Assembly: GCF_014196515.1 (NCBI RefSeq)
Contig: NZ_JACIDV010000008.1
Location: 62,001-126,000 of the forward strand
DNA from: Rhizobium skierniewicense
GTDB lineage: Bacteria > Pseudomonadota > Alphaproteobacteria > Rhizobiales > Rhizobiaceae
Direction: 5' to 3'
Length of the DNA stretch: 64,000 bases
Of this stretch, positions 11,884-29,993 are shown one piece after another (position 1 is the stretch's first letter; each line of letters begins with the position of its first letter). Below the pieces are notes generated by a model that searched no databases, had not been told where the DNA came from, and saw nothing but the letters and a program-made list of their open reading frames with translations. The translations under genes and the position numbers were made by a program.

Positions 11884-13220
11884 TCATTCAGCTGCTTCCA
11901 GTCGAGCGAGAGCTTTCTGTCGTCTTGCAATCACTTCCGGATCGTTCATGAAATCCGTCCTGCGCCCACGTTTTCGGCCACGTTTCTGATAATCGTTGCT
12001 CTGGCTGCCATCTGGAATCTCGAACATGCTGTTAGTCTGTCCGGTTCTTCGCGGCCCACGCTTGCTGCGCTGTAGATCGCGGCCTTCCTGCATCTCCGCA
12101 ACCAGTGACAGCATGTCATCCAGTCGCTTGTTCTCAACCACAGGCGGCCGCCTGGATAATCGCAAACGATGACTTTTTGACCTGCGAGCGACGTTGCCCG
12201 TTCCGTTGGATCTAGGGTGAATATCACCTTGTCATAGCGCAGCTTCAGAGACTGAGACAGCGTGCCGACTTCTTTGCGGCACATGGCGCCGTCGAGGTTC
12301 TCATGGGCGGCGAGGGGACGGTACATATCTTTCGGATTGCGTGGTGGCTTGCCGAAGCGGGCATTGAAATCGACAATAAATTCTGGAGCATAATTATTGG
12401 CAGCCTCTATCGTGTCGATACCGCGGAGCCGCAGCTCCTTGACCAGTCGATCCTGCAGAGTCTGATTGGCCCGTTCAACCCGGCCCTTGGCCTGTGGGGT
12501 ATTGGCGCAGATGATGTCGATGTTCAGCTCATAGAGTGCGCGTCCAAACTGCGTTAGCCCACTCGTTCGATCTTTCTGCGAAGCATGTGTAGAACGAAAC
12601 ACGCCATGCTTGTCGCTGTAGAAAGCCAGCGGTTTACCCCATTGCTGCAAATAAGCTTTTGTCGCATGCAAATAGTCGAATGTGTTCTCAGATCCGGCAA
12701 AGCGCAGGTGCAACAGCTTTCCGGTGGCGTCATCGATGTAGACGAGCAGGGCGCATTTTGGGCCGCGGTTCTCGAACCACCGGTGATGAGATCCATCGAT
12801 CTGCACGAGCTCGCCAAACCAATCGCGCCGGCCGCGTGGTTGAAAGACGCGTTTCGTGCGTTCTTTCCGTGATATCCAGATGCCTGCCTCGGTCATCCAC
12901 TGGCGCAGCGGTTCCTTGCCGATCGCCAGTTGGTGCCGTTCAATCAGCTTCTCACGAGCCAAGGTCGGGCCGAAATCGGCATACCGTTCTCTGACAAGAT
13001 CGAGAACGGTGTTGCGAAAATCCTTGCTGTGACGCCGGTTGCTTGGTTGCTGACGCTTCTTAGAGACCAGACCGGGCATGCCGTACGTCTCATATGCATT
13101 TAACAACCGATGCATCTGGCTGCGGCTGATGCCGAGCACGCCGGCGGCCTGGACAACACTCAGGCGCCGATCGTGAATCTTCTGGATGACTTCGAGGCGA
13201 TGCAATTCTTTCTGCGACAT
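11884..13220 (-). pseudogene. ISNCY-family transposase, decayed by internal deletion and frameshift
   Basis: The N-terminal part matches ISNCY (IS1202-type) transposases: an HTH (RRLSVVQAAGVLGISRSQMHRLL), a second HTH-like segment and the integrase-like catalytic core with IDGSHHRWFE, the YSDKHGVFR motif and KGRVERANQTLQDRLVKELR carrying the DDE residues. Near 12150 the frame changes: after CDYPGGR the expected linker is missing and the true C-terminus (VVENKRLDDMLS...) continues in another frame to 11884. About 25 residues seem deleted at the junction. The element should be immobile unless complemented. Its exact terminal repeats were not located. The start may be 13238 or 13220. Confidence 0.82.
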
Positions 13221-13370
13221 GGTGATCAAAAAGGACATGGCAACTCCGAACCCTCCTGACCGCTGTCAGGCTGAACATCGTCGCATCCTTGCTCCCAACG
13301 TTGATATTGACCAGCGTCGTCGTGCGAGGAAGGTGTCGCATTACTAAAAGGGCGTTACATACAAAGATTG

Positions 13371-13477
13371 CATAATATATATTATGGAACAACCGAGCCA
13401 TTTTGTTTTTATTGCGTTCGCGTTGCTTTTACGGAAATGGCTCTCTGCTGGTCCGGTAAAAGAGCCATTTGGTTGTT
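13371..13477. repeat. Palindrome plus interleaved inverted repeats
   Basis: A perfect 16-bp palindrome, CATAATATATATTATG (13371-13386), is followed by AACAACC+GAGCCATTT (13388-13403). AAATGGCTC (13435-13443) and then GAGCCATTT+GGTTGTT (13462-13477) follow. CTTTTAC (13426-13432) pairs with GTAAAAG (13456-13462). AAATGGCTC could pair with either GAGCCATTT copy, so two alternative hairpins compete. The array lies just beyond the stop of the ISL3-like gene and may mark an element end or a switchable terminator. Confidence 0.6.
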
Positions 13478-13484
13478 GCGAAAT

Positions 13485-14777
13485 TCATTCGCCAACGAGA
13501 CCGTTGCATTCAACACATGACGTTCGGATCACTGAAAACGTCCTCGATGATCCTCCAAGCGATTTCCATACCATCCGGCGCGTCTTGTTTGTCCAGCGCT
13601 GGGATTCGTTCAGACAGAAATGACAAAGCGCATAGCTTTCGTCATCGAACGGTTGATGCCTAAAGATGCCGCATCCGTCGACGATAGCTTTCGACGATGT
13701 GGAGCCAAGCATTGACCGCCCAGTCGTGTAGCGAGAAAGCCCAGGGATTGTGACCGAGCCGGAAAGCTGCTCATGCCATTGTTCCACGGCCCTAACGATG
13801 TCTGTATTAGACCTACGGAGTACCTTAGGAAGGCCTTCAAGGAACTGATCTAGCGCGCGCGCCACCTTTACCGGATCACGGGCTTTCCATACGCGGTGGA
13901 AGGCCTTGCGGGCTGCATAAGCGTGTTCCAGGTAAGGATTTACTTCAACGATATTCAACGATCGTTGGACAGGTTCCGCAAACGACCTGAAGGACAATAA
14001 GTACGGATCAGTCTTCTTGAATGCCTTAAACTGGCTTTTCGACAGGAGTTCCGAGCCAATCTCCAGCATTCGCTCGCGTATCAGGAAGGGATTCACTGCG
14101 ATCATGGAATCCGGCAACGTCTCTGCCACGACATTGAAAAGACTGTCCACGGTGTCGACCACCGCAACCACGATGGCACCTTTGTCTGGCATACCTTGAA
14201 GCCACCTGCGGATGTCGGCCGCCCTACCTGACATGATATAGTGAATGACGCGACGATCGCAGACATCCCACATCACAGTTGCCGTCCGACCGCCGATCTC
14301 GCACTTAGCAACACCTAGTACTTGCGGCGTCGACTGAAGGTGCTTCAACAAGCTTTTTTCCGCCTGATCGACAAGAATTTTGCGAACCGTCTTTCGGTCA
14401 AGGCCAACTCGCACCGCCAATTCGGACACTGAGACGCTCGAGTCTGCCTCTCGTCGCAGATATTCGACGAGGCGAGAAGTCGTCCGAAAATTTTCCTCAA
14501 CTCCCGGAATCGTCTGGCGATAGGATGTCAAACACTTATGACACCACATCCGATGGTAGCTCACGAGCAAAGCGACTGGAGACCCCGACCGAGGGACATC
14601 AGATATGAGGATCTGCCTTCGTCCATGCATCCGCGCCCGCCCTCCGCATGTGCAAAAGAGCCCTACCCTAGCCGTCTCGACGCGTGTCACGTACTTCTGT
14701 GTCGTTACATTGAAGTCCGGCGGCGCGAGAGCGACCAGTCCCTCTGGAGGTTCGATTGCAGCGTCAATCATGGCCAT
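13485..14777 (-). CDS. ISL3-transposase-like protein lacking recognisable catalytic residues
   Basis: The architecture follows ISL3 TnpA: an N-terminal zinc ribbon (CTCGG with a later CHKC), an HTH (VSVSELAVRVGLDRKTVRKIL) and an RNase-H-like core. The core is atypical. Where ISL3 enzymes have LGIDE the protein reads LGVAKCE, and where they have the second aspartate in a D-R-F-H type motif it reads VNPFLI. The C-terminal glutamate region is also unrecognisable. It may be a DNA-binding protein derived from a transposase, or a decayed one. I chose the ATG at 14777; a TTG at 14804 is an alternative. It diverges from the recombinase operon and may regulate it or recognise element ends. Confidence 0.6.
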   Translation of the reverse strand: MAMIDAAIEPPEGLVALAPPDFNVTTQKYVTRVETARVGLFCTCGGRARMHGRRQILISDVPRSGSPVALLVSYHRMWCHKCLTSYRQTIPGVEENFRTTSRLVEYLRREADSSVSVSELAVRVGLDRKTVRKILVDQAEKSLLKHLQSTPQVLGVAKCEIGGRTATVMWDVCDRRVIHYIMSGRAADIRRWLQGMPDKGAIVVAVVDTVDSLFNVVAETLPDSMIAVNPFLIRERMLEIGSELLSKSQFKAFKKTDPYLLSFRSFAEPVQRSLNIVEVNPYLEHAYAARKAFHRVWKARDPVKVARALDQFLEGLPKVLRRSNTDIVRAVEQWHEQLSGSVTIPGLSRYTTGRSMLGSTSSKAIVDGCGIFRHQPFDDESYALCHFCLNESQRWTNKTRRMVWKSLGGSSRTFSVIRTSCVECNGLVGE

Positions 14778-14941
14778 GCACCTGATACTGTATACGATCT
14801 GCAACCAAAAGATCCCAGATGACTGCTTGCCAACATAATTATTTAAGATGTTTTGTCAATGTTCACAATTACTTAGTCTTGCTTTTAAAGCTTGCGAATT
14901 CACTCACTCAGCGCAATATTGAGCCCAACCGGAGGTGACGC

Positions 14942-16132
14942 ATGAGTGTTATTAATCTTGACGGAATGGTCGCGTGCGTTGACGTGGACGGCGGACCGCG
15001 ACTGTGGGCAACCTTGTGGTCTGAACTTTGGCCTCTGAATTTGAGCGAGGACGTCATCAGGAGACGGCTTCGTAGCGCCGAGCGGCTGTATGAGGTTACA
15101 GACGAGCTATTCGGCCCCGGCTCCCTTGATCGTTTCATGACGCACTGCGATTTGGAGAAGCTAGAAGTAGCTTTAGATGCATTGTTTCATCGCTTACGCA
15201 ATGAAGCACGGTCCAACGACACCAACATGAGCAAAACTTTCCACCGCTCCAAATCCTTCATCTCAGAAGCTATGGCGAGCTGGCATCCGAAGGCTAACAC
15301 ACGTGATTTGCAGGCTGCACTCGCTGAGATCGACGACTTTCACAAGAATACCGCGTTGGGACGAGAAGCATCGGCAGCCGCCATTCGCTCTCTTCCTCCG
15401 ATTGTGATCGTGGAGCTTGGTAAAATCTTCGATCCAGGGTCCCCGCGAAATCCTTTCCGCACATTTGTCGTCAAGTTTCGCAACTACCTAATCTTCTTAA
15501 TCCTTCTGAGGTGCGGACTCCGGCGAAGTGAGCTCGCTCTTGCGACCACTAACGACATCATTTCCGAATTCGACCGTCGGCTGGACCGAATGGTCTATCG
15601 CATAAATGTAGTGGAGACGGGCGTAGAAGACGAACGAGCGCAGCGCCCTTCTTTAAAAACGATCCAGTCGCGCCGTCAGATTTTCATTCCGGAATATTTA
15701 TACAAGCTAATCCGGCGCTACGAAATCGAAGTACGGCCACCGACCACTACGCCGTTTCTCTTTGTGTCGCAGAAAAGACGTCCAATCTCGACGCGGCAAT
15801 TGAATAATATCTTCGAGGTTGCGTCGAAAGCGCTTTCCGAGGACGCAAAAGCTGCGCTCGCGCAGCAACAACTCGACAAAGCTTCTTGCCATCATTTGCG
15901 CCATACCTGTGCGGTCGGTCGCATGAAAGCGCACCATGCCAAAGGTACGCATCACGACGAAATCATGAGAATGATGCGCGTGTACTTCGGGTGGGACAAA
16001 GACTCCGAAATGCCCCTCCACTACGCCCGCGCGTATTTTGAATCGGAGAATGCGAAAGTATGGGACGCGGCGTTGGACGCCAGCGTCGACGTTTTGCGAG
16101 CAGCCGGGCTCTGCTCATCTGAGGAAGATTGA
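14942..16132 (+). CDS. Tyrosine recombinase 1 of a recombinase trio
   Basis: A 396-residue tyrosine recombinase/integrase. The catalytic arginine is in LRCGLRRSE (about residue 190), HxxR in CHHLRHT (about 317), and the C-terminal H...Y in MPLHYARAYF (about 361-365). The N-terminal 150 residues are helical and divergent, as in the first members of Tn554, RIT and GInt trios. An excellent ribosome site (GGAGGTGACGC) precedes the ATG. The next recombinase gene starts one base after its stop. Such enzymes act together to excise and integrate the element at specific sites; that activity is inferred here. Confidence 0.9.
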   Translation: MSVINLDGMVACVDVDGGPRLWATLWSELWPLNLSEDVIRRRLRSAERLYEVTDELFGPGSLDRFMTHCDLEKLEVALDALFHRLRNEARSNDTNMSKTFHRSKSFISEAMASWHPKANTRDLQAALAEIDDFHKNTALGREASAAAIRSLPPIVIVELGKIFDPGSPRNPFRTFVVKFRNYLIFLILLRCGLRRSELALATTNDIISEFDRRLDRMVYRINVVETGVEDERAQRPSLKTIQSRRQIFIPEYLYKLIRRYEIEVRPPTTTPFLFVSQKRRPISTRQLNNIFEVASKALSEDAKAALAQQQLDKASCHHLRHTCAVGRMKAHHAKGTHHDEIMRMMRVYFGWDKDSEMPLHYARAYFESENAKVWDAALDASVDVLRAAGLCSSEED

Positions 16133-16133
16133 A

Positions 16134-17610
16134 ATGGAGACGCTTCCATCCGGTTTTCAGGAACTCCGACTTCCTAAGCTCCCCAAACGGCTATCTTACT
16201 ATGACGACTTCGCCTGCAAGGAGCGGATAATTGAAGATATCGAAGGGTGCGATACCGTGAGAATTATGATCGGCGGTGATGTCCACTGCTGTAATCTGCA
16301 GGTTTTCGGTGACGCAGCCAAGACGATGAGGGTGGTTATCAGCGAATGGGTCCGAAAGGTAAAACCAACGACTGCTACGATACAGTTCGCAGGGATGACC
16401 GCATTCGTCCGTGAGTGCGGAAACGACAAGTTAAAGGAACTTATACTGCTCGATCCGCTGGAGCTCGCTCGATGCTGGAATTTTACGATCAAGCCGTTCG
16501 TGACCTACGAAATGGCCAGCGCGATACGCTCGTTCCTGCATGTCCTAGCGTCGAATGAGATAGCGCATTGGAGACCGTGCGACGCCGTCAGGATTCGTCA
16601 CTCGATCCGTAGCCCAGCTAAGGACAGGTTCGCAAAGATCAGAGCCGGTGCAAGCTATCTGCGGCAGGACGAGCAGTCACGAGTAGTCAATTACCTCGAT
16701 CATTTTAGCGCCGAAGTCTCTGACACGACAGCATTAGCGGAGGTCATTCAAGCCGCGCTTCTTGTACTTGGATTTCAGCATGGGCTACGACCAGGACAGT
16801 CCGCTCGACTTTTAGAGAACGAAATGGAGTTTTTCGACGACGGCACGATGCACATAACGGTTCCATATCTCAAGCAGCCGCGCGGAACCGTCCGACGTGT
16901 GAGCATTCGCTCGATCAAGAAGGAATGGGTTTCAATCTTTCGTGAGTTATCAGGTCGAAATAAGCGGAATCTCACCACAGGAGGTACGGAATCCAGGCGA
17001 TACCTATTGCGTCTAACACCAAGACAGGTGACGTCCGAGACAAGTCAAGCGCTGGCCTCTCTTGCGATCGAGAGGAGCGCTACTGACTTGCGTCACACTG
17101 CGGCGCAAAGGCTCGCGGACAATGGAGCTACTGCTGCGCAGATCATGGACTTTTTGTGTCAAACGAGCGGAAAGATCGCTCAGCTCTACATCGACGCCTC
17201 TCCATCACAAGGAAAGATAATAAACGATGCTCTCGGGCTCTCGCCTTTCCACCAAGACCTCCCAGCGAAACACGCTTCTCGGTTCTTGACAAAAGAGGAA
17301 CTGCTCGCACTGCAAACTGGTAAGAGGCGTGCCACATGGGTTCGCTACCGGAGTAGTTGGTGGCTGCGCCAATGGCCAGAGCTTGTGCGCGCGCAGCCCG
17401 GTTACCGCATGCTACGACTGCGACCGCTTCATCCCGAGTGCTGACATTGAAGTACATCGGGAAGTGGAGGTCGGATTAACGCGTGTCGTTCAGCAGTTTC
17501 AGAGCCATGGTAACTGGCACTCCGGCACCCCTGCCTTTAATCAGCTTGGATGGACCATCAAGAATGTGAAAGCTGTGATCAAGGCACTTTCTCTACGAGC
17601 TTCGAAATGA
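16134..17610 (+). pseudogene. Tyrosine recombinase 2 of the trio, frameshifted near its C-terminus
   Basis: The first frame (ATG 16134, GAGGA upstream) has the catalytic arginine in FQHGLRPGQ (about residue 217), HxxR in DLRHTAAQ (about 319) and the tyrosine in QLYIDASP (about 350). Near 17321-17328 homology switches frame: the expected tail, including GFATGVVGGCANGQSLC and CYDC with a cysteine knuckle, continues in the next frame to a stop at 17610. That stop overlaps the third recombinase start as ATGA, which shows 17610 is the ancestral end. As sequenced, translation stops at 17444, leaving the catalytic core but a foreign tail of about 40 residues. No classic slippery heptamer is evident, so a one-base indel is likelier than programmed shifting. 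Confidence 0.8.
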
Positions 17611-19928
17611 AGGAGTTCGCACGTTTCATTAACGATTCCAGAGAATTAGCAGAAAAGAAAAACGTCTCTTGGAATATTTCCGTCGACGCAGTGGGCAACA
17701 TCGTGAAGGGCCACCGATTGGAACTTGGAAGGATGGCAGGATCGCGTCAAAACGGCCCTTCTTTTTCTCGGACGATGCCAGATGAAAAGACCTTGGATTT
17801 GATGAACATAATTAGGGCAAGACAGAGACTTGACCCGATTTTTTGCAAGGCACCGGCGGAACCGTGGATCGACCTAATGATGGCAGTCATCATCGACCAG
17901 ATTTTCGTCAAGGTCAACAGGCCTGCACAAGTGCAGCGGCATTTGCTCATGATCAGGATCATAGCGGCCGAGAGCGGCCCTACGCCGCCGTGGCAACTAG
18001 AGCCCTCAACCGTCCGCCGTGCCTATAATGTCGCTCTTGGCATAGGGGCATCCGGCAAGAGTGCCTTGGATCTCTCCACCACGATTAAAGTCTATTTCGA
18101 CCAACTGCGACTCGCAGAGGTCCCAGCTCTCGGGAAGTATTGCGTTGCCTACGATGATGCCGCGGGCGAAGAGCGCGTGCGATCCAGAAAGGCGTATCAA
18201 AACGACCGACATGCCAGCAATCAGATTCTGGATCGACTATCAGATCGGCGCTCTCCGGAAAAGCTGCCCGACAAGAGATCATATTTCATGATTGTCGATA
18301 TCGTATTCGCAATGGAGCCGCACAACGTCTCCGACTGGATACGATTCTCTGCAATCAAGCTGATGATCGTGACGGGACTTCGCGCCGAAGAGGTCCTAGG
18401 AGCGCCGGTCAATTGCCTTTCCTGGCGTGAATACCTTGACAGTGACGGCAACCCGCCTGCCCTTGGCGGCGGCGTTTCGAGGGAGGTGTTCTTTCGATAT
18501 TTTGGTCTCAAAAAGGAGTCAGAAAGTAATCGTGGAAGCGCGGCGCTCTATGAAACAAGTCAAAACGTACCATTGCTTTTTCAGAGGATATTTGAAGACA
18601 CGGTCGACGATGTTCGACGCGTCACGGCACCTGCTCGGGAACGCTTGGCTGCGCAGGCAGCTTCGGGCCGGCTGCTTCCCGAATACGGTCGACACGAGAT
18701 CGTCCCAGCGATGGAAATTTTCTCTCGCCTCACCGGAAACCTCAAATATGCTGACTGCGAGCTCCCACCAGAAGTCGTGGCGGCCTATCGGAAGAGCCTT
18801 GATTTCGAGCATTTAAAATCCTTGCGCGACTATCAGGAGTCGTGCGGTCGCGTCTCGCATACTGTCATATCGTTCTTCTCACGAAAAAGCTTCCAACCAT
18901 ACGATCATCATGGCACCCCTATCCTCGGGAAGAACAAAAACTGGTTCTCATGCTATTTTCGCGTCGGCGAAGTCGAGGACGCACTACAATGCGAGCTGGT
19001 AACAAAATCGCCGGAACTTAACTCGCTCGTGATGCAAGGAGATCGACGTTACGGCACACATGATATGCTGTTTCTTATGCCCGTCCGAAACTTGGTCGAG
19101 GGCCGAAATCGAGGCGTGCTGGATGTCGAACGCTACTATGCGTTTGGGAGAGCTGACTACGGAGACATCGATCTCGCTCTTGATGGTAGCAATCCGAACT
19201 CGATTTTTCGCCGCTACCTTGGCGAAGACGGCAGCTCCCTGTGCGTCAACACCCTCGAGTTCAGACATCTTCTCAGTGACGTTCTGTTCTGCAACCACGT
19301 CTCCGACGTTATCAACGCCAAGTTTTTTGGACGTCACACGTTGAAACGAACGGCTCAGTATGATCACACGACTTTGTCAAAGGTTCTCGAGGAGATGGAC
19401 ATAGGCGTCGAGGAAGACGAGCTTCTCGATGATACGCAGCGCGAGATGATCGCCGAGATCCTTCGCGACAGCATCGGCGGCCTGAAGGTGGAGCAATTTC
19501 GCAAAATCCAGCGCGAAAAAGGCGATAAAGCGGCTGTTCGGTATCTGGCCGGCGCTGTGGCTGGGTTCACTATCACCCCACTTGGAGCGTGCACCTCGAA
19601 TTTCGTAGCGGCGCCGTGTCCACGTCATCTAGAATGCTTTCGCCGTTGCGAGCATCTGACACGGACCTCCGACCCCGCCGAGGCTCAACGACTTGACGAC
19701 CTCTTGGAAGGGTTCGAGATTCAGCGAGACGCTATCCTCGAAATCCCCGAGGCACGACGCACTCTCGGTTGGCAAAGCCAGCTATCCCATGTGAATGTGC
19801 AGATCGAAGGCACGCAAGCTGCGATTGCCGCCGCGCCAGGTAGCAAGGTCTTTGCGAATGGGGACGATCTCTTCTTACCGGTAGAAGATGAGGAAGACAT
19901 TCTTCCCAGAAAGCCTCCGCGTGGCTGA
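17607..19928 (+). CDS. Large tyrosine recombinase 3 of the trio
   Basis: A 773-residue protein with a long helical N-terminus and a recombinase core: arginine in TGLRAEEVLG (about residue 257), an LEFRHLLSD segment (about 550) in place of the usual HxxR context, and H...Y in GRHTLKRTAQYDH (about 574-581). The wide arginine-to-histidine spacing and greater size match the largest member of RIT/GInt-type trios. After the core comes a cysteine knuckle (ACTSNF, CPRHLECFRRC, about 660-680) and an acidic tail. It starts in ATGA at the ancestral end of recombinase 2. The 19-codon upstream extension of the frame is not needed. Confidence 0.83.
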   Translation: MKEFARFINDSRELAEKKNVSWNISVDAVGNIVKGHRLELGRMAGSRQNGPSFSRTMPDEKTLDLMNIIRARQRLDPIFCKAPAEPWIDLMMAVIIDQIFVKVNRPAQVQRHLLMIRIIAAESGPTPPWQLEPSTVRRAYNVALGIGASGKSALDLSTTIKVYFDQLRLAEVPALGKYCVAYDDAAGEERVRSRKAYQNDRHASNQILDRLSDRRSPEKLPDKRSYFMIVDIVFAMEPHNVSDWIRFSAIKLMIVTGLRAEEVLGAPVNCLSWREYLDSDGNPPALGGGVSREVFFRYFGLKKESESNRGSAALYETSQNVPLLFQRIFEDTVDDVRRVTAPARERLAAQAASGRLLPEYGRHEIVPAMEIFSRLTGNLKYADCELPPEVVAAYRKSLDFEHLKSLRDYQESCGRVSHTVISFFSRKSFQPYDHHGTPILGKNKNWFSCYFRVGEVEDALQCELVTKSPELNSLVMQGDRRYGTHDMLFLMPVRNLVEGRNRGVLDVERYYAFGRADYGDIDLALDGSNPNSIFRRYLGEDGSSLCVNTLEFRHLLSDVLFCNHVSDVINAKFFGRHTLKRTAQYDHTTLSKVLEEMDIGVEEDELLDDTQREMIAEILRDSIGGLKVEQFRKIQREKGDKAAVRYLAGAVAGFTITPLGACTSNFVAAPCPRHLECFRRCEHLTRTSDPAEAQRLDDLLEGFEIQRDAILEIPEARRTLGWQSQLSHVNVQIEGTQAAIAAAPGSKVFANGDDLFLPVEDEEDILPRKPPRG

Positions 19929-20358
19929 CAAGGACGCCCTACTCGCCGAGATCCTTCAAAAGATGCTTGCGGATGATAGGAAAATTACACTCGGGGCCGT
20001 TGTTCGGCATTCAGGCGGCGCGTTCAAGCACGCTAGTGATTTATGCCGCGTTAGAAGCAGAGATCTTCTCGTGAAGGCCGCGATTGTACAGCAGGATCAG
20101 CTCCGATCAAAATTAGAGGGCATCGATGTTCTCGATGTTGAAACCTTATCGATTGAGCTGGCGAGGAGTAGGGCTAACGAAGAGCGTCTTAAACACCAGA
20201 AATGGGTTCTATCGTCTGCTTTGTGGAAGCTAACCAGCATCATGACAGAAGCGGGTAGGATCAAGATGCAGGAGTATATGCGCCGGCATGCTGAAGTCTT
20301 CGATGATTTGGAAAAGGAAGCCTCGATACTTCAGTCGAGAGGAAAACAGGCTGACTGA
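19888..20358 (+). CDS. Small trio-associated protein A, HTH/coiled-coil-like
   Basis: The 156-residue protein is basic. Its N-terminal 70 residues could form an HTH (ITLGAVVRHSGGAFKHASDLCRV) and the rest reads as a helical, charged coiled coil (VETLSIELARSRANEERLKHQK, then YMRRHAEVFDDLEKEA). Small proteins of this design follow integrase trios (TnpC of Tn554, GinD of GInts, DUF6262-type proteins); I infer the same accessory role from position. The ATG at 19888 overlaps recombinase 3 by 41 bases. A GTG at 19921 with an 8-base overlap is an alternative start. Confidence 0.7.
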   Translation: MRKTFFPESLRVADKDALLAEILQKMLADDRKITLGAVVRHSGGAFKHASDLCRVRSRDLLVKAAIVQQDQLRSKLEGIDVLDVETLSIELARSRANEERLKHQKWVLSSALWKLTSIMTEAGRIKMQEYMRRHAEVFDDLEKEASILQSRGKQAD

Positions 20359-20380
20359 CCGCACAGGCAAGAACGGCACC

Positions 20381-20758
20381 ATGATCGCCCAGGAGCATGT
20401 GGACTCGTTGGTCGAGTACTTGGAGGCCATGACTGGGCGTCCCCTGCCCCGTCGTGGAACGGAACTTAATAAGACGCTCGTCGCACGAGCATGCGGTTTC
20501 GACAGGCAGGTTTTTAGAACCAACCCGCGGTGCGCAAACCTGCTCGCTAGGGCGGACGAGGACGATCGCGTTGCCAATCTCGATCTTTTGGCTCAGGGCG
20601 AGCTCAAGCGCGAACAAAGAAGCTCGAGCGACGCTCAGTTGCACGCCATAGAGGAAAAACTATTGCGAACCACTGCGGAGAACCGTTCTTTAAGACAACG
20701 ACTTGAGCGGCTTTTAAGGCTTGAGGCTCTCCTCATCGAAACAGGTCGACTGCCTTGA
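20381..20758 (+). CDS. Small trio-associated protein B, HTH/coiled-coil-like
   Basis: A 125-residue protein with the same layout as its neighbour: an N-terminal segment that could recognise DNA (RRGTELNKTLVARACGFDRQVFRTNPRC) and a C-terminal heptad-rich coiled coil (AIEEKLLRTTAENRSLRQRLERLLRLEALL). The next gene begins in ATGA at its stop, so it is coupled to the helicase. I chose ATG 20381 because the sequence upstream overlaps protein A out of frame. I assign no specific function; a recombination directionality or DNA-bridging factor is a reasonable guess. Confidence 0.7.
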   Translation: MIAQEHVDSLVEYLEAMTGRPLPRRGTELNKTLVARACGFDRQVFRTNPRCANLLARADEDDRVANLDLLAQGELKREQRSSSDAQLHAIEEKLLRTTAENRSLRQRLERLLRLEALLIETGRLP

Positions 20759-22998
20759 CCAGCAAAACAGCATCCGAGACTCCCCGAGAGCACACGATGG
20801 AGGTTGTTGTAACATCCATTCATCCTTCTGCTGCCGGGGATATCATCCTCATTGGTCGCGACAAGTTCGAAAATCTCGTTCGCGCTTTGGTTCCGGGCCG
20901 GCTGTTTGCGGATTCTCCACGCGAAGGCGAGACTTGGCGGATATCCGGAAGCCGGCGAGTCCACCCTGTTTACGGTGACCAGACCTATGCTACCGTTGCG
21001 TTACCTTTACTACCAAGTGGCAAGTCAATTGTGAGGTTTCTTGCCGTCAATCCTCGCTTTGTGGGAGTCGGCTGGGCCACGGCCGAGCTTTTGTGGACGA
21101 GGTTTGGTATCGCCCTCTACGACACCATCCAGAGCGCCGACGTTGCAACGCTCGCAAGCGTCTGCGGCATAGAGCGTGCAGCGACGATCGTCGCGGAGTT
21201 CGCTGGTTTTGCGGAAAATCTGGAAGTCTTCAAAGAACTCGACAAGTACGGGACCTCCCCGCAGACCGCCGGCGCTGCGGCGAGGCTGTGGGGGCGAGCC
21301 GCCATCGCCAAGATCAAGTCGAACCCCTACTCGCTCACCCTTCTCGAACCCTGGTCGTCGGTGGATGACCAAGCCCTAAGAATGGGAGTTTTAAAAAACG
21401 ACGCCCGGCGTCTCGTTGCGGGAGCCGAGCAGGCTTTAACCACGGCTCTCAAGAAGGGACACATGTTGCTCTCTCGGAAAGAGGCCCTTCGAGCCACCCA
21501 GGCAGTTATTGGATCGGGAGCCGATCCTCGTCGAGCACTCCATGTTGCGATCGAGTCTGGATTAATCGTCAACGTTGCTGAAGACTCCTTACAATTGCGC
21601 GGCTGCGAGTTCATGGAGCGGGAGATCGAGAGGCAGATCGGCCTTCGACTCAAGTTAGCCCGAAAGGTTGAAAGCGACAGTATCTTAACAACGCTTCGAA
21701 ACCTCGCTGCACTCCAGCGCTTTGAACTTACCGATAAACAACGCGATGCCGTGTTCATGGTCGCGTCCGGCTCGGCAAGTATTCTTACAGGCGGCGCGGG
21801 AACGGGAAAGACCGCGGCACTGCGCGCGATCGTCGAATGCGAAGAACCGATACACGACGAGACATCCGACGCACGCATTCGTCTCGTCGCCCTCTCCGGA
21901 CGGGCGGCCCGTCGTATGGCGCTGGCAACAAGAAAGGAAGCATGGACGCTGGCTCGGCTGCTCACGGCGTTCGACACTGGTGTGAGGATGGAAGAGGGGC
22001 TGATTGTGTTCGACGAGGCGAGCATGCTCGATACACCCAATGTCTACCGCGTCCTTTCCAAGCTGGGAGAGGACGTACGAGTTCTTTTCGTCGGGGACCC
22101 CGGACAACTCCCTCCGATCGGGCCGGGATTGCCGTTTCAGAAGCTCGTCACGTCCCCGCACGTTCCACAGGTAAAACTTGATCTCGTCCATCGCCAGGCA
22201 GAGAACACCGGGATTCCGTTCGTTGCCTCTGCCATCCGGCATGGATCCTTACCGACGTTTCAGACCTTCGACTTTGCTTTTGCACACAGGCCAGGGGTCT
22301 TTCTCGTACCTTGCCGAACCGGGGATGTGCCCACTGCCGTCCGCAAAGTCTTCCGAGCGATGGTAGGACCTCCGCCACGAGCTGGCTTCGCCGACGCTCT
22401 GTGGAAACGTGACGTTCAGATCGTGACGCAGATCAATTCCGGACCGGCGGGAGCCAGAGATCTCAGTAGGGATATCGAAAGCGAATTCATGGTTAAACAA
22501 GTACCGGTTGAGGACTGGGGATTTCACGAGGGTTCCCGCCTCATTTGGCTTAAGAACGACTATAGGAAGGCACCCGTCGTCGATGCCAAGGGAAAGGCGG
22601 TCATCGATCCAACGACCGGAGAGCCTCGTTTTAACGGTTTTTTCAACGGATCACTTGGCATCCCTCGACTCGTTGACGGGCGCTGTCTTCTTTCCTTGGA
22701 CGACGGAAGCTCTGACTTCATCACCCGGTCGGATGTTGAAAAACTCGCTCTCGGGTGGGCGATCACGATTCATAAGGCGCAGGGTTCGTCATTTGACACT
22801 GTAATCGTGCCCATCACTCCCTCCCCTTTGCTCGACCGAACAATGCTCTACACTGCCGTCACCCGCGCTGAGAATACGGCGGTGCTTGTTGGCGATCCTG
22901 ACTTAATCCGAGAAACGATCGAGTCTGTGGCTAGAACTACATTCAGGGGCTGCGGTCTGGTGTTCCACATCGAACCAGAGGCCCCTTATCTTACTTAG
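20755..22998 (+). CDS. RecD/RecD2-like superfamily 1B DNA helicase
   Basis: The 747-residue protein has a RecD2-like plan: a beta-rich N-terminus, a helix-hairpin-helix-like region (NPRFVGVGWATAELLWTRFG), a helical linker, and the motor. Motor motifs are Walker A GGAGTGKT (about residue 347), motif II IVFDEASM, motif III GDPGQLPPIG, motif V/VI TIHKAQGSSFDTVIV and YTAVTRAE. RecD2 enzymes unwind DNA 5'-3'. It ends an operon with ATG overlaps and no RecB/RecC partner, so I infer it serves the mobile element, perhaps in replication or processing of an excised circle. No nuclease motif is seen. Confidence 0.85.
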   Translation: MTSKTASETPREHTMEVVVTSIHPSAAGDIILIGRDKFENLVRALVPGRLFADSPREGETWRISGSRRVHPVYGDQTYATVALPLLPSGKSIVRFLAVNPRFVGVGWATAELLWTRFGIALYDTIQSADVATLASVCGIERAATIVAEFAGFAENLEVFKELDKYGTSPQTAGAAARLWGRAAIAKIKSNPYSLTLLEPWSSVDDQALRMGVLKNDARRLVAGAEQALTTALKKGHMLLSRKEALRATQAVIGSGADPRRALHVAIESGLIVNVAEDSLQLRGCEFMEREIERQIGLRLKLARKVESDSILTTLRNLAALQRFELTDKQRDAVFMVASGSASILTGGAGTGKTAALRAIVECEEPIHDETSDARIRLVALSGRAARRMALATRKEAWTLARLLTAFDTGVRMEEGLIVFDEASMLDTPNVYRVLSKLGEDVRVLFVGDPGQLPPIGPGLPFQKLVTSPHVPQVKLDLVHRQAENTGIPFVASAIRHGSLPTFQTFDFAFAHRPGVFLVPCRTGDVPTAVRKVFRAMVGPPPRAGFADALWKRDVQIVTQINSGPAGARDLSRDIESEFMVKQVPVEDWGFHEGSRLIWLKNDYRKAPVVDAKGKAVIDPTTGEPRFNGFFNGSLGIPRLVDGRCLLSLDDGSSDFITRSDVEKLALGWAITIHKAQGSSFDTVIVPITPSPLLDRTMLYTAVTRAENTAVLVGDPDLIRETIESVARTTFRGCGLVFHIEPEAPYLT

Positions 22999-23647
22999 CG
23001 AGCGGACCCTTCCGGCTGCATGGAGCTTGAAAACGTGTCCACAAACCCATGTTCCTTGTTCGATCCTCCAGAGGATCGAACATCGCGCACAGCGCGATCC
23101 TAAGATGTTCCCCGTCCCGATACCTACATAAGGACATGAATACGGAGCCGGTCACCGAAGGCCGAAACGAAGAGAAGGACGGCAACGCCGTTGACAGGCT
23201 TCGTCTTCATGTCACTCTCGACGCTCTAGTGAAATCGATAGTTTGGAGTCGTTTGCGCGATGCCGTTGGACCGCCGTCTCTGTCTCACAGCATGGCGCAC
23301 TAATGTAAGGCCTGACCGGAACAAGTCCGCGGCTCTCCGTCGAATGGTAGGGGGATACTCCTCAGCTTCTTCGATTTGATATGTTTCCCGCACAACGGGA
23401 GCATCGTAAGCGGTGTGCCGCTGGCACATTGAATTCGCACCCCTAACAAACATGCAATTGCGGCGCGGGCATTTCACAGGATCATGCTTGATCACTTGAT
23501 GGCGCATATCTGGCTCATGCGGGTCGAATTTTGTAGAAATCAGCACAGATAGTCGCTAAATATTGCCCACAGCGCGTGCTGCGGTGCTGCGGGTTCCCCC
23601 GAAATCCACGGAGACTACGATCAACCTCTCACAAGGAGCGCGAACCC
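22999..23647. other. Intergenic region between the helicase and nhaA
   Basis: This 650-base stretch contains the two hairpins listed separately and no gene I recognise. A 55-codon frame starting ATG at 23136 with AAGGAC upstream, and a 106-codon minus-strand frame ending at 23226, are open but unconvincing. It probably includes the right boundary of the recombinase element and the nhaA promoter. Confidence 0.4.
23057..23098. repeat. Two tandem perfect hairpins after the helicase gene
   Basis: The first is a 12-bp perfect inverted repeat, TGTTCGATCCTC / GAGGATCGAACA, with a two-base loop (23057-23082). The second, overlapping its last base, is ATCGCGC / GCGCGAT with loop ACA (23082-23098). 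No T-run follows, so they are not typical intrinsic terminators. Their place 58 bases after the last gene of the recombinase operon makes them a candidate element terminus or recombinase binding array. Confidence 0.6.
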
Positions 23648-26382: not shown

Positions 26383-26624
26383 GGAGAAACTCCCTTTGCT
26401 CATCCATGGAAAGCGGATCACAGATTAGGACGGACAGAACAACGTGGGAGCGGGACACCGGTTACGGAGCATCCCGATGCAGACTATGCATCCGTCGCCT
26501 TTACGCGTCACAGAACGCGTGGCGTCCAAAAGTCCTGCGGAAAATTAGAGGAATCTAAAGGATTTAAATATCCTTGCGTGGAAGTAACTGCTAGAGCGAT
26601 TCCGTGAAAATGGGATGGAGTCGC

Positions 26625-27626
26625 ATGGCTGGTCTCGCGGTAAAAATCCAGGAACTCGATGACAAACTCCTTGAAGAGTTCATAGACATATGGCTCACCC
26701 GGAAGGCGACGAAGTATCTTCGTGTCGAAACGCTTGGGAAGGCGAATGACAAGGGTCGCGATGTTGTCGGGTTCTGCTCTGATGATCTGCACGAGGCTGA
26801 CTGGGATCTGTATCAATGCAAGCGGAAAACGCATGGAGCCAAGCTTGGGATGCCAGAATTCCTCGCTGAACTTGGAAAGGTTTTCCACCATCACACGACA
26901 GGCACCTACAAGACGATGCCGCGGGAATTTTTATTTGTGGCACCGCGGGGAGTTGTCGGGCCGGTGCAAGACCTCCTTTTGAATCCTTCGACAATCGCTC
27001 CCGCGTTAGTCGCGGGATGGGATCAGTACTGCCGGAAATCGATTACGGCAAAGGTAGACATTCCACTCAGCACGGCCGTTTCCGCGGCTATCGCAAGTTT
27101 CGACTTCAAGCAGGTAGACTACTATTCCGCGGCAAGGCTCGCCAAAGACCCGGATGCGAACCCGGCGATGAGCAAGCTGTTCAATCTCCTTCCCGGCGAC
27201 GCGCCGGAGGGTACGATGCCGGACGAGATTGCAGTCAGCGAGTTGACCTATCTGGCACAGTTGACGCAGGTTTACAGTGAATTCGCAGGCAAACCCTTCT
27301 TTTCTACTGATGACGTCCTCTCCCATCCCGAACATGGAAGACACCTCAGGCGACAGAGAACCAGATTTTTCGAGGCCGCCGCCTTTGAAAGATTTCACAG
27401 AGACAATACTGCGCCAGGTGCGGTGGAAACGTTCAAGAAAGATATCTACGATAGCGTCATAGATGCATACGAGCGATCGCACTCTACAAAGCTCGATCGC
27501 GTCGATGCCGTTCTTAACCACGCACTGTTGGTTCCCACAGATCTGCGTGGAAAGATTGCGCGAGGTCCTGTTCGCCAAGGGATGTGTCACCATCTCGCCA
27601 GCGACGGAAAACTGAAGTGGGACTAA
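26625..27626 (+). CDS. ABC-3C system effector: restriction-endonuclease-like domain plus ABC-3C C-terminal domain
   Basis: This 333-residue protein is the first gene of an ABC-three-component conflict system. Residues 10-130 look like an Mrr/PD-(D/E)xK nuclease: a glutamate in the first helix (E17/E18), aspartate D46 in KGRDVVGF and Q64-C-K66 in LYQCKR. The rest matches the helical C-terminal domain (LTYLAQLTQVYSEF, TRFFEAAAFERFHRDN, DRVDAVLNHA) that anchors ABC-3C effectors to the complex. GGATGGAG precedes ATG 26625; the GTG at 26604 has no good site. It overlaps the next gene in TAATG. Cutting invader DNA on ATPase activation is inferred from the family. Confidence 0.78.
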   Translation: MAGLAVKIQELDDKLLEEFIDIWLTRKATKYLRVETLGKANDKGRDVVGFCSDDLHEADWDLYQCKRKTHGAKLGMPEFLAELGKVFHHHTTGTYKTMPREFLFVAPRGVVGPVQDLLLNPSTIAPALVAGWDQYCRKSITAKVDIPLSTAVSAAIASFDFKQVDYYSAARLAKDPDANPAMSKLFNLLPGDAPEGTMPDEIAVSELTYLAQLTQVYSEFAGKPFFSTDDVLSHPEHGRHLRRQRTRFFEAAAFERFHRDNTAPGAVETFKKDIYDSVIDAYERSHSTKLDRVDAVLNHALLVPTDLRGKIARGPVRQGMCHHLASDGKLKWD

Positions 27627-28102
27627 TGTCGGAAGAATTCGGGGAACTGTTCAACTCGCAGCTCGAGGCAGGCATACGCGCCGTCGTCGTGCTCGAGAAC
27701 CTGCGTCCAGTGGCCGCCGACCTTTCCGAGATGGTTCTCTTCGATCACATCGTCGTCCATTCCGCGGATATTGGCGGCCCCAAATCTCTTCATGCCGACG
27801 TGCCTGGCCGGAAAGGGGAACTCCTTGTTCGAAGAAGGCTAGTAGAGGCTGGGCTCGACCTCATGCGCCGGTGTCATCTTGTCGAAAAGGCAACTGACGA
27901 CAACGGCTTCGTCTGGAGGGCTTCGGACGACGCGGCATCGTATGTCGAGCTTCTCGAAACCAAATACTCCGAGCATCTCAAGACGTGCGCTGTCCGGCTC
28001 GCGACGGAAGTCAGACGTCGCTCGAAAGAAGGGTTCAAGGAATACGCGCGGGAGAGACTTGGCGACTGGGGTGAGTCCTTCGGCACCAAGGGCGGGGCTT
28101 GA
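27626..28102 (+). CDS. ABC-3C system middle component
   Basis: A 158-residue helical protein between the nuclease-like effector and the ATPase matches the position and style of ABC-3C middle components, which have winged-HTH-like folds and bridge the other two subunits. Visible segments are RAVVVLENLRPVAADLSEMVLFDHIVVHSAD, RRRLVEAGLDLMRRCHLVEK and the C-terminal EVRRRSKEGFKEYARERLGDW. Its ATG uses the last base of the preceding stop, and the ATPase gene starts one base after its stop, so the three are one coupled operon. Confidence 0.75.
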   Translation: MSEEFGELFNSQLEAGIRAVVVLENLRPVAADLSEMVLFDHIVVHSADIGGPKSLHADVPGRKGELLVRRRLVEAGLDLMRRCHLVEKATDDNGFVWRASDDAASYVELLETKYSEHLKTCAVRLATEVRRRSKEGFKEYARERLGDWGESFGTKGGA

Positions 28103-28103
28103 T

Positions 28104-29993
28104 ATGGCTGCTGATCGGATCGTCATCAAACGCCTTGCGTTCACGGGGCCGGAGAAGGCGCTGAAGGATCTCCCGTTCGTTCCGGGGCTGAACGTTCTAT
28201 GGGGAGCGTCCAACGCCGGTAAGTCTTTCATGATCAAATCGCTGGACTTCATGTTCGGCGGTGGAACGCCGCTGCCTGGAATCGCACAGCTTCAAGGATA
28301 CGACCGCTGCTGGATTGAATTGGATCTCCCCCGCTCTGGCGCGACGACCTTGTCGCGGTCACCGAGAGGCGGCAGCTTCGCCGTATACGCTGACCCCGTC
28401 GAAAACGCGCTCGGGACGGATCCAGAAGGAACACTGTCGGCTACCCACTCTTCTGGGACAGATAGTTTATCCGGATACCTCCTTGACCAGGTCGGCATTC
28501 AGGGCAAGCAGATCGCATCGACGTTATCCGGCGACAAAGTCGGGTTCAGCGTCCGGCACTTGGCCCGCTATATGTTTACGGAGGAAACTCCGATGATGTC
28601 GGAGGCTGCTCCGATTAGGATATCGGAGCGGAACAGTGAGACGCTGGATCGCAATGTCCTCAAATTCATTCTTTCAGGCATCGACGACAGCGCCGTGGTG
28701 GTCTCGAAGAGCACCAAGGAGCAGAGGACTGCGAATTCCGGGAAGATAGAGATCGTCGACGAAATGATCGCTAGCACGCAGGCTGAGCTTGCGAAATTAT
28801 TTCCCCAAGACGATGCCATAGACGAGTTGGATCTCGCAGCGCAGAATGAGCGTCTGACGGCTTCGCTGCGCGCCTACCATACCACCCTTTCGGCAGCGCA
28901 GCAGCGTCTCGACCTCCTTGTGCAGGGCCGCCGTCGGGCTAAGGACGAACTCGAGAACCTCCACTTCCGCATCGCTTCGATCAATTCAACCGTCGACCGC
29001 TTTGGGCTGCTTGAAAACGTCTACAACAGCGATATGGAGAGGCTCGAAGCTCTTGAGGAAGGCGCGGCTGCCCTTATGGCTGGCGCTCGCCGACCCTGCC
29101 CTCTATGTGGAGCCGACCCCGCCCATCAACATGAGGCGCACGGTCTTGAGGTTGTTGAGCTGTCGCGGGCTGCGGTGGTCGCAGAGATTGTCAAAATACG
29201 AGGTGAGAGTTCCGATCTCAAGCTCACCGTCCGATCACTGACCGCGGAGTGGGAAGGACTGGTAGCTCGAGCAGCTCAAATACAAGAGCAGCTCGCTCAA
29301 GCCGAAATCAGGATCGCCGGTGCCCGACCTGCCGAAGTCCAAGCTAGAAAGTCCTACGAAGAGATCGACCAAGCGCGGCAGAGGATCAAGGATGGTCTTG
29401 CCTTGAAAAGGCGTATCGACAGTCTGAAAGTCAGGAGGCAAGAGCTCGAGTCCTTCAAGGCTGTGAAAACCTCCGACCCAGTTGTTCCTGGAATCAGCGG
29501 CCCGCTGGGGCACGAGTTCGCCATGACGGTACAATCAATACTCCACGAGTGGCAGTTCCCCGGCGAACCCGTGGTCTCCTTCTCGGAGAAGCACGACATC
29601 CTCCTGAACGGTTCGGATCGAGGAAGCAACGGCAAGGGCGTCCGTGCGCTTATGAACGCAGCCTTCAAGATTGGCGTCCTGATCTTCTGCCGTGAGCATA
29701 ATCTGCCGCATCCTGGTATCGTGGCGCTCGACAGCCCGCTCCTAAGCTATCGTGACCCCCACACATCGAGGCACGGCGAGCTTTCTGCGGACGAACAGCA
29801 GGTAAAGAACGCCGGGCTAAACACGTATTTCTACGAATATCTCGAACGGCAATCGTCGCACGCGCAATTCATCATAGTCGAGAACGATCCGCCGCCCTTC
29901 AAGCTCGGCCCAGACGCAATGGTGACGACCTTCAGCGGCCCTGTTTCCGTGAGTGGTCGTAGTCCCACAAGCCAGCGAAGCGGACTTCTGTAG
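28104..29993 (+). CDS. ABC-3C system ATPase (DUF3732-type, SMC/Rad50-like)
   Basis: The 629-residue protein is the ABC ATPase of the system. Walker A is GASNAGKS (residues 34-41), followed by MIKSLDFMFGGG. The middle is a long charged coiled coil (about 195-460), interrupted near residue 331 by CPLC, a Rad50-like zinc-hook motif. The C-terminal lobe has GSNGKGVRALMNAAF and a Walker-B-like GIVALDSPLLSYRDPH. Such proteins are thought to sense DNA ends or foreign complexes and to license the nuclease. ATG 28104 follows the middle component stop by one base; the long upstream open frame overlaps that gene and is not used. Confidence 0.85.
   Translation: MAADRIVIKRLAFTGPEKALKDLPFVPGLNVLWGASNAGKSFMIKSLDFMFGGGTPLPGIAQLQGYDRCWIELDLPRSGATTLSRSPRGGSFAVYADPVENALGTDPEGTLSATHSSGTDSLSGYLLDQVGIQGKQIASTLSGDKVGFSVRHLARYMFTEETPMMSEAAPIRISERNSETLDRNVLKFILSGIDDSAVVVSKSTKEQRTANSGKIEIVDEMIASTQAELAKLFPQDDAIDELDLAAQNERLTASLRAYHTTLSAAQQRLDLLVQGRRRAKDELENLHFRIASINSTVDRFGLLENVYNSDMERLEALEEGAAALMAGARRPCPLCGADPAHQHEAHGLEVVELSRAAVVAEIVKIRGESSDLKLTVRSLTAEWEGLVARAAQIQEQLAQAEIRIAGARPAEVQARKSYEEIDQARQRIKDGLALKRRIDSLKVRRQELESFKAVKTSDPVVPGISGPLGHEFAMTVQSILHEWQFPGEPVVSFSEKHDILLNGSDRGSNGKGVRALMNAAFKIGVLIFCREHNLPHPGIVALDSPLLSYRDPHTSRHGELSADEQQVKNAGLNTYFYEYLERQSSHAQFIIVENDPPPFKLGPDAMVTTFSGPVSVSGRSPTSQRSGLL

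Follow-up and report, generated by a model that had tools for sequence, protein, structure and literature searches.

GInts, genomic islands with three integrases, have three recombinase-type genes and a small gene at one end, followed by variable cargo and a short far end. Short imperfect direct repeats lie at their borders, the exchange is staggered by 6 nt, all four gin genes are needed for excision and integration, and some GInts leave no detectable empty site (PMC5385486). No ginC-ginD synteny was found in Alphaproteobacteria (PMC10214605). Here we describe a locus of this general kind in a 64,000-nt stretch of the alphaproteobacterium Rhizobium skierniewicense (contig NZ_JACIDV010000008.1, positions 62,001 to 126,000), which we call the window and whose coordinates are used throughout. 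We consider it likely that the left end of a 65-kb GInt-like island, the end with the recombination genes, lies in the window, and that the island's own trio (TR1, TR2 and TR3), two small proteins (ACC1 and ACC2) and RecD2-like helicase use the dif site as their attachment site.

Three further families bear on this locus. Strand-biased circularizing integrative elements (SEs) have terminal inverted repeats and a 6-bp fingerprint and footprint, a copy-out model has been put forward for them, and they have in common with the window element a recombinase-type trio and a small protein (PMC10214605). Their gene order, intA-tfp-intB-srap, is not that of the window: the protein that lacks the catalytic motif is second in SEs, whereas the large protein without a matching model is third in the window. 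Gamma-mobile-trios (GMTs) are trio islands with defence cargo, Lamassu-type systems included (Nat Microbiol 2024 as cited in PMC12715929). Lastly, IMEX elements integrate at dif and keep the dif site, as does the window element (PMC5357621, PMC9765430). The word 'helicase' occurs 0 times in the main text of the GInt paper (PMC5385486) and 0 times in that of the SE paper (PMC10214605).

The likeness to the GInts lies in the operon layout, the cargo, the far end and the border repeats; the sequence comparison covered the GInt-like loci L010-L014, L124 and L125. As in a GInt, three integrase-type genes and a small gene stand at one end, with TR3 counted by synteny and TR2 counted in its broken state. 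The window element differs in that it adds genes for a VPA1267-like protein and a RecD2-like helicase, targets dif and is alphaproteobacterial. It is best filed as a dif-targeting, helicase-bearing variant of the GInt-like trio islands.

The target site

The comparisons in this section show the window element to be inserted inside the chromosomal dif, after GCATAA-N6-TTATG. The pattern GCATAAN6TTATGGAAC is found exactly once in the element's own genome, at 13370. Across the order, 135 of 297 genomes have it, usually as a single copy whose centre is characteristic of the genus. Its reversed control pattern is found in 2 genomes, and the form GCATAAN6TTATGGAA is present in all 36 relatives from the genus. 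The published dif sites of A. tumefaciens C58, Brucella melitensis chromosome I and M. loti fit the motif, and the published B. japonicum dif arm, TTATGGAATAT, fits it with GAAT replacing GAAC (Carnoy and Roten 2009, PMC2731167). The C58 position given in the same source, 1478815, fits the pattern site that we find at G006:C1:1478807-1478826. The E. coli dif core pattern has zero matches in the element's own genome, the rhizobial XerD arm being TTATGGAAC.

A second line of evidence comes from the FtsK-orienting polar sequences (KOPS; GGGNAGGG), whose polarity switches at dif (PMC12153318, PMC13342612). On the 204-kb contig there are 12 plus-strand and 0 minus-strand KOPS to the left of the window's dif, and 2 plus-strand and 21 minus-strand KOPS to its right. 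Among ten relatives, nine lack minus-strand KOPS to the left of dif, the exception being G001 with one; to the right, plus-strand KOPS are missing from eight and occur once in G017 and once in G010. The GC skew of the window shows no clear turn, unlike the KOPS.

The same ten relatives all have dif without the island. To the right, they match the DNA of the window's own contig from coordinate 78453 or later; this right flank starts 62-118 bp right of dif in seven of them and 0.9-4.4 kb right of it in three (G016, G026 and G022). The left flank is collinear in eight; G011 has it in the opposite orientation, and the stretch examined of G016 does not contain it. The helicase was not found in the ten relatives at E 1e-60, and among 61 genomes only the element's own, G015 and G027 matched.

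Sites of this pattern also show an arrangement that involves insertion sequences (IS). Of 76 unique dif-pattern sites, 20 have TACA (by eye the end of an IS) precisely 10 nt ahead of GCATAA, where about 0.3 would be expected by chance (the sites are not independent), and an ISNCY-type transposase gene lies within 300 bp in 7 of those 20, always on the minus strand. The window's own dif, which is outside the 76 counted, has the same TACA arrangement (11946-13238, 13356-13369). One exact position at dif appears to be an IS insertion hotspot, with sites in L003, L006, L019, L021, L065, L082, L133 and others, and several different IS ends seem to use it in common.

Element ends and the rebuilt site

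Exact ends for one element of this group come from a tandem duplication in plasmid pBoOO86 of Bradyrhizobium ottawaense. This plasmid has two tandem copies with 0 differences and a period of 8,754 bp, and the otherwise matching pBoOM27 has one; the strains, OO86 and OM27, are soybean symbionts whose copies are identical. The left border is GCATAACATAG-ATTATG|GAATGG, the right border is CCGCAT-ACTTTG|ACACAT and the copy-copy junction is CCGCAT-ACTTTG|GAATGG, with an ambiguity of 2 bp. The Bradyrhizobium copy starts with GAAT, like the B. japonicum dif arm. In this one natural case the junction holds the six attR-side bases, which would be the reverse of the SE bias, in which attL-side bases pass into the circle.

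By analogy with this junction and with 15 other elements, we place the left boundary of the window element at 13387. The attL sequence reads GCATAA-TATATA-TTATGGAAC, and it is the GAAC at the element's left end that completes dif. A left border of the form GCATAAN6TTATG-G is present in all 16 helicase-bearing elements, being exact in 13 and having one mismatch in L018 and L122 and two in L020, whose left site has CAGATAA, as does the published dif of Brucella chromosome II. At the other end the motif CTCACTCA..GAAA..GCA.TCTTTG|GAAC, with variation, is found in 12 of the 16. The four in which no such motif was seen are L005, L120 and L123, which all reach a contig end, and L121, read to 5.9 kb past the helicase. 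The window element's right end could be located once this conserved motif and the synteny were known. The motif ends at 78358, giving an element of about 65 kb (13387-78358) whose last 14 kb are outside the window. The right border is CTCTTTG|GAAC, in which the XerC arm is missing, and no second dif is formed. The borders, TTATGGAAC and CTTTGGAAC with the right-end motif CTCACTCAC, are imperfect direct repeats, and the cargo is followed by a short far end, as in the GInts.

The preliminary description of this DNA had placed the ends near 13371 and at 23098, with inverted repeats at both sides. The first of these ends is close to the one found here; the second is far short of it. The left inverted repeats are element-end sequence, folding no better than shuffles (z -0.95), and the right one folds strongly, as a double hairpin (23057-23097; z -5.7 against shuffles) that is probably a transcription terminator and not an element end. 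A sequence resembling it also lies 3' of the L005 helicase (by eye). We rejected 23098 as the right end, the hairpin being terminator-like and the DNA in common with L005 extending, by eye, to about 23215. Inside the window nothing convincing turned up when we searched for the left end in inverted form.

These borders also bear on who carried out the insertion. IMEX elements have no recombinase of their own and rely on host XerCD. If the window element were one, XerCD would have put in a circle with a dif mimic on it, and the trio and helicase would be cargo with some other job. The element does lie exactly in dif, as IMEX elements do (PMC5357621, PMC9765430), but it has a trio of its own, the right border lacks an XerC arm and makes no second dif, the bases that differ between the borders are in the XerD arm and not in the 6-bp centre, and relatives with the same trio lie at other, non-dif dyads. 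We therefore regard insertion by XerCD as very unlikely, and keep to an island that uses its own recombinases at dif.

The Mesorhizobium element at L009 has an ISNCY-type insertion (about 14845-16600, by eye) some 20 bp beyond its right end.

Copies elsewhere

A tblastn search of plasmids gave 36 records with TR3 and 433 with the helicase at any similarity. Fifteen of the 36 were read, in 16 stretches; the B. ottawaense stretches L006, L015 and L016 represent one element, which leaves 14 elements. Together with L005 (from genome contigs), seven matches in six further genomes and the window, these make up 23 trio loci, which were chosen by TR3 similarity and are not a census. A TR3 profile search was positive in 7 of 394 genomes of the family, the window's own included.

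The helicase and ACC2, whole or decayed, are present in 16 of the 23 loci (the window, L005, L006/L016, L007, L008, L009, L017-L021 and L119-L123), which bears out the earlier proposal that the helicase is part of the element. Besides the window, 15 copies have the helicase and two (L005 and L123) have an ISL3-like gene, so that the outcome named earlier as refuting the proposal, a lack of both genes in every other copy, did not occur. The helicase was not found within the stretches examined of the other seven loci (L010-L014, L124 and L125). L005, L020 and L021 are visibly decayed, and the closest copy in genome contigs is a single locus, L005 itself. Two helicase-bearing elements, L009 and L016, are cargo-free and just 8.7 kb long. 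In another genome of the genus, a partial helicase (G027:C18:542966-544409, L003; 50% identity, residues 349-729) lies about 260 bp from a dif-like site and is probably the remnant of such an element.

The helicase-less loci L010-L014 adjoin dyads on their left (by eye), such as TGATAA-N6-TTATCA in L010 and CATAA-N6-TTATG in L013, and the trio may recognise arm-N6-arm sites in general. Could dif be just one short dyad among the many open to such trios, with no special tie to dif or the terminus? The helicase-less relatives to the right of other dyads (again TGATAA-N6-TTATCA in L010, by eye) and the distant helicase-bearing loci without a dif-like site speak for this. Against it, all 16 helicase-bearing elements found via TR3 are at dif or a near-dif site, on chromosomes and on plasmids, and their left end restores a conserved GAAC or GAAT arm. 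We judge a tie-free choice of dyads to be quite unlikely and prefer dif as the attachment site of the helicase-bearing elements.

The helicase and ACC2

The helicase has a superfamily 1B (SF1B) core and a RecD2-type helix-hairpin-helix domain (PF14490, 9.6e-12), the features that define RecD2, though its 352 bits against TIGR01448 are below the equivalog cut-off of 500. Its best PDB match is D. radiodurans RecD2 (9.5e-42), and the motor motifs (Walker A/B and motif VI) are invariant across its group. ACC2 scores 42 bits against the VPA1267 model NF040697, with a cut-off of 90, and the R. beringeri copy gives 2.5e-15; by these profile matches ACC2 is a distant member of the VPA1267 family.

Searching 398 genomes of the phylum for this family at E 1e-8 gave eight genomes, a lower bound, as the window's ACC2 was itself missed. 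In all eight distant loci a RecD-like helicase, 27-37% identical to the window's, follows the VPA1267-family gene, directly in seven and 1.6 kb on in L151. All three proteins of the upstream trio are similar to the window's in L149, L151 and L152, and two of the three are in L145 and L150, one of them weakly. In L146, L147 and L148 no trio protein resembling the window's was found; L146 and L148 each have a single gene that fits recombinase models. Because the pair recurs beside distant trios, the ACC2-type protein and the helicase appear to be an old accessory module that travels with several types of trio.

Alternatively, the helicase and ACC2 may protect the element's DNA or serve defence, and have no part in transposition. 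Models of RecD-like defence helicases in PADLOC do match (typeIV_RecD, 2.8e-46), and a Lamassu pair is among the cargo. However, defence cargo is expected to vary, whereas this pair adjoins the recombinase genes in 16 rhizobial elements, including the cargo-free L009 and L016, and the helicase follows in 8/8 VPA1267-family loci from other genera. A purely protective role thus seems rather unlikely to us, and we favour a role in the movement of the element.

VPA1267 itself is in the V. parahaemolyticus island VPaI-6, in which the product of the neighbouring VPA1266 is given as 1,879 nt (PMC1464126). We infer that VPA1266, with a product long enough for a helicase, is the helicase. VPaI-6 we take to be a GMT. 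The window element resembles the GMTs in its trio, its Lamassu-type cargo and its VPA1267-like ACC2. It differs in that TR1 scores 17.9 bits where the GmtY model requires 340, and the NCBIfam scan gave no match to any further GMT model. Among the papers listed in our searches none joins a trio island with dif or with a RecD-like helicase, although the GMT paper (Nat Microbiol 2024) may describe a helicase beside VPA1267. The preliminary description had suggested an integrative element of an undescribed type. An integrative element with a trio it is, but trio islands are described (GInt), and the combination of a VPA1267-family gene with a RecD-like helicase recurs at each of the eight distant loci.

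The recombinase trio

The genes of the operon are tightly coupled: one base separates the TR1 stop from the TR2 ATG, the TR3 ATG overlaps the TGA of TR2's other frame (17607-17610), and the reading frames of ACC2 and the helicase overlap by 4. In the alignment with its relatives TR1 has conserved GLRR.E, HxLRHT and Y positions, to which we presume catalytic roles. TR2 has a frameshift near 17.3 kb; its frame ends at 17444 and its conserved Cys-rich C-terminus is in another frame that ends at 17610, whereas the reading frame is intact in relatives. Because TR2 is broken, the window copy is probably no longer mobile on its own.

TR3 had zero matches in Pfam, NCBIfam, PHROG and PDB sequences and 0 relatives in viral contigs. 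With hhalign there was no significant match to TR2 (E 0.25) or TR1 (E 0.17), and an AlphaFold model from the lone sequence was unusable (mean pLDDT 32.5). An alignment of relatives has conserved GxRxGE, RHL and Y residues (by eye), and on these residues and synteny we assign TR3 as the putative third member of the trio. The inventory drawn up earlier (an ISL3-like gene, a coupled trio, two small proteins and a RecD2-like helicase) was correct in its main lines, except that TR2 is not intact and that TR3 is not a recombinase by sequence match.

Proposed mechanism

The island is inserted in dif in such a way that the GAAC at its left end rebuilds one complete core, with no second dif made at the right border. 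The host can probably go on using the rebuilt dif, and because one working dif remains, XerCD would neither excise the island nor be disabled by it. Integration would swap about 6 bp (TTATGG against CTTTGG) in the XerD arm; because these bases lie away from the Xer strand-exchange point, the exchange would be made by the element's own recombinases. A probable task of the helicase, with ACC2 as a partner, is to unwind or replicate the intermediate of strand exchange, and exit may be replicative, as proposed for GInts and SEs. This scheme draws on the place of the exchanged bases, on GInt genetics (PMC5385486) and on the SE work (PMC10214605). The earlier suggestion that the helicase unwinds or replicates the excised form is plausible, and its premise that the helicase belongs to the element has held up.

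In L008, L020, L021 and L122 a right end is directly followed by another left end, and a second right end comes 1.4 kb on in L021 and 227 bp on in L020 (all by eye). The second units in these two look like passengers without recombinase genes. New copies may come in at the rebuilt dif and displace earlier ones to the right, which would result in head-to-tail arrays; with dif restored on the left side, the latest arrival would most simply stand leftmost.

Several observations weigh against this account. The evidence is comparative throughout, no movement having been seen. In the window, other DNA amounting to 4.9 kb separates the collinear left flank (8481) from dif, and the left flank is within 50 bp of dif only in G009, the other relatives having intervening DNA; the left side must therefore also have been rearranged. 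The cargo may have accreted, rather than all 65 kb arriving in one event. Among the helicase-bearing elements, L008, L018 and L019 are credited with ACC2 on the position and size of the gene only. Two of the seven helicase-less loci, L013 (an exact core) and L011 (one mismatch), also have dif-like targets, and none of the eight distant helicase loci has a dif-like site in the fetched DNA, including L151 and L152, which come from the same taxonomic order as the window; the helicase does not imply dif. Finally, in the TR3 tree the elements with both dif and helicase are not recovered as one clade (2 changes; deep fork 56/75).

If the island does use dif, this is of some importance. The site is conserved and occupies a critical position in chromosomes and in large plasmids, and recombinases of its own, a rebuilt dif and the lack of a second copy would spare the element from deletion by XerCD, and XerCD from losing its own site. 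Exact ends are now available for a group of rhizobial islands, and a reason is offered for the gathering of cargo at dif (the Lamassu pair here; an ars-like cluster, identified by eye, in L005). In the small cargo-free elements, what a RecD2-like helicase linked to recombinases does can be tested directly.

More tentatively, and with less than even probability, this family of trio elements may have made dif a renewable entry port, comparable to the attI of integrons. Each element would insert, rebuild dif with a lineage-matched XerD arm, leave no second dif and bring its own KOPS that point toward dif; elements and cargo-only passengers would accrete on a last-in basis, and the helicase would couple copying to terminus events. 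Inside the island there are 0 plus-strand and 10 minus-strand KOPS, and the sum over 11 element modules, the window's included, is 6 plus and 30 minus, uncorrected for relatedness.

Gene content, cargo and the ISL3-like gene

The features of the window are collected in Table 1. The cargo scan covered the larger reading frames and identified, apart from the Lamassu-type pair, NhaA, an IS66-like unit (by eye), Ku, LigD, a UvrD-like helicase, a DinB-like polymerase and ImuB- and DnaE2-like genes. The last two are named after their Pfam domains.

Table 1. Coordinates of the features at the left end of the island and in its cargo
Feature	Position	Strand	Basis
attL, rebuilt 28-nt dif site	13365-13392	+	XerC arm 13365-13375, centre TATATA 13376-13381, XerD arm TTATGGAACAA 13382-13392
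Element left end	13387-13484	+	Begins GAAC; AAATGGCTC/GAGCCATTT repeats in both orientations
ISL3-transposase-like gene	13485-14804	-	PF01610 1.2e-7, NF033550 2.7e-26; divergent from operon
TR1, tyrosine recombinase	14942-16132	+	PF00589 1.8e-10; alignment of relatives
TR2, tyrosine recombinase, broken	16134-17610	+	PF00589 2.6e-6; frame open to 17444, C-terminal part in other frame 17329-17610
TR3, large third trio protein (773 aa), GinC position	17607-19928	+	Alignment, profile search, tree
ACC1, small protein, GinD position	19888-20358	+	Found by tblastn in relatives, in some weakly or not at all; start unsure
ACC2, VPA1267-family-like small protein	20288-20758	+	NF040697 7.8e-11; likeness to relatives starts about 20350
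RecD2-like SF1B helicase	20755-22998	+	TIGR01448 6.3e-105; Walker A/B and motif VI residues conserved
Double hairpin, terminator-like, 3' of operon	23057-23097	+	Folding against shuffles
Island cargo	23216-64000, continuing to 78358 outside the window	+	Library scans of window proteins; extent from relatives and right-end motif
Lamassu-type defence pair LmuA/LmuB, cargo	26604-29993		LmuA 9.8e-79, LmuB 1.8e-148

An ISL3-like gene stands between the left end and TR1 in three of the 16 helicase-bearing elements, namely the window, L005 (70% identity) and L123 (31%). A chance IS insertion was considered and rejected, as the gene has the same place and orientation in the three elements at 31-70% identity. 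By its distribution it appears to be a subgroup marker that is dispensable to the other elements; a relative without a trio is also found, in L022 (33%). A motif like that of the right end, CACTCACTCA, lies just before TR1 in the window (14901-14910) and in L005 (1653), the only two of 11 loci scanned to have it and the two of these with the ISL3-like gene, and the ISL3 segment perhaps arrived as a separate unit.

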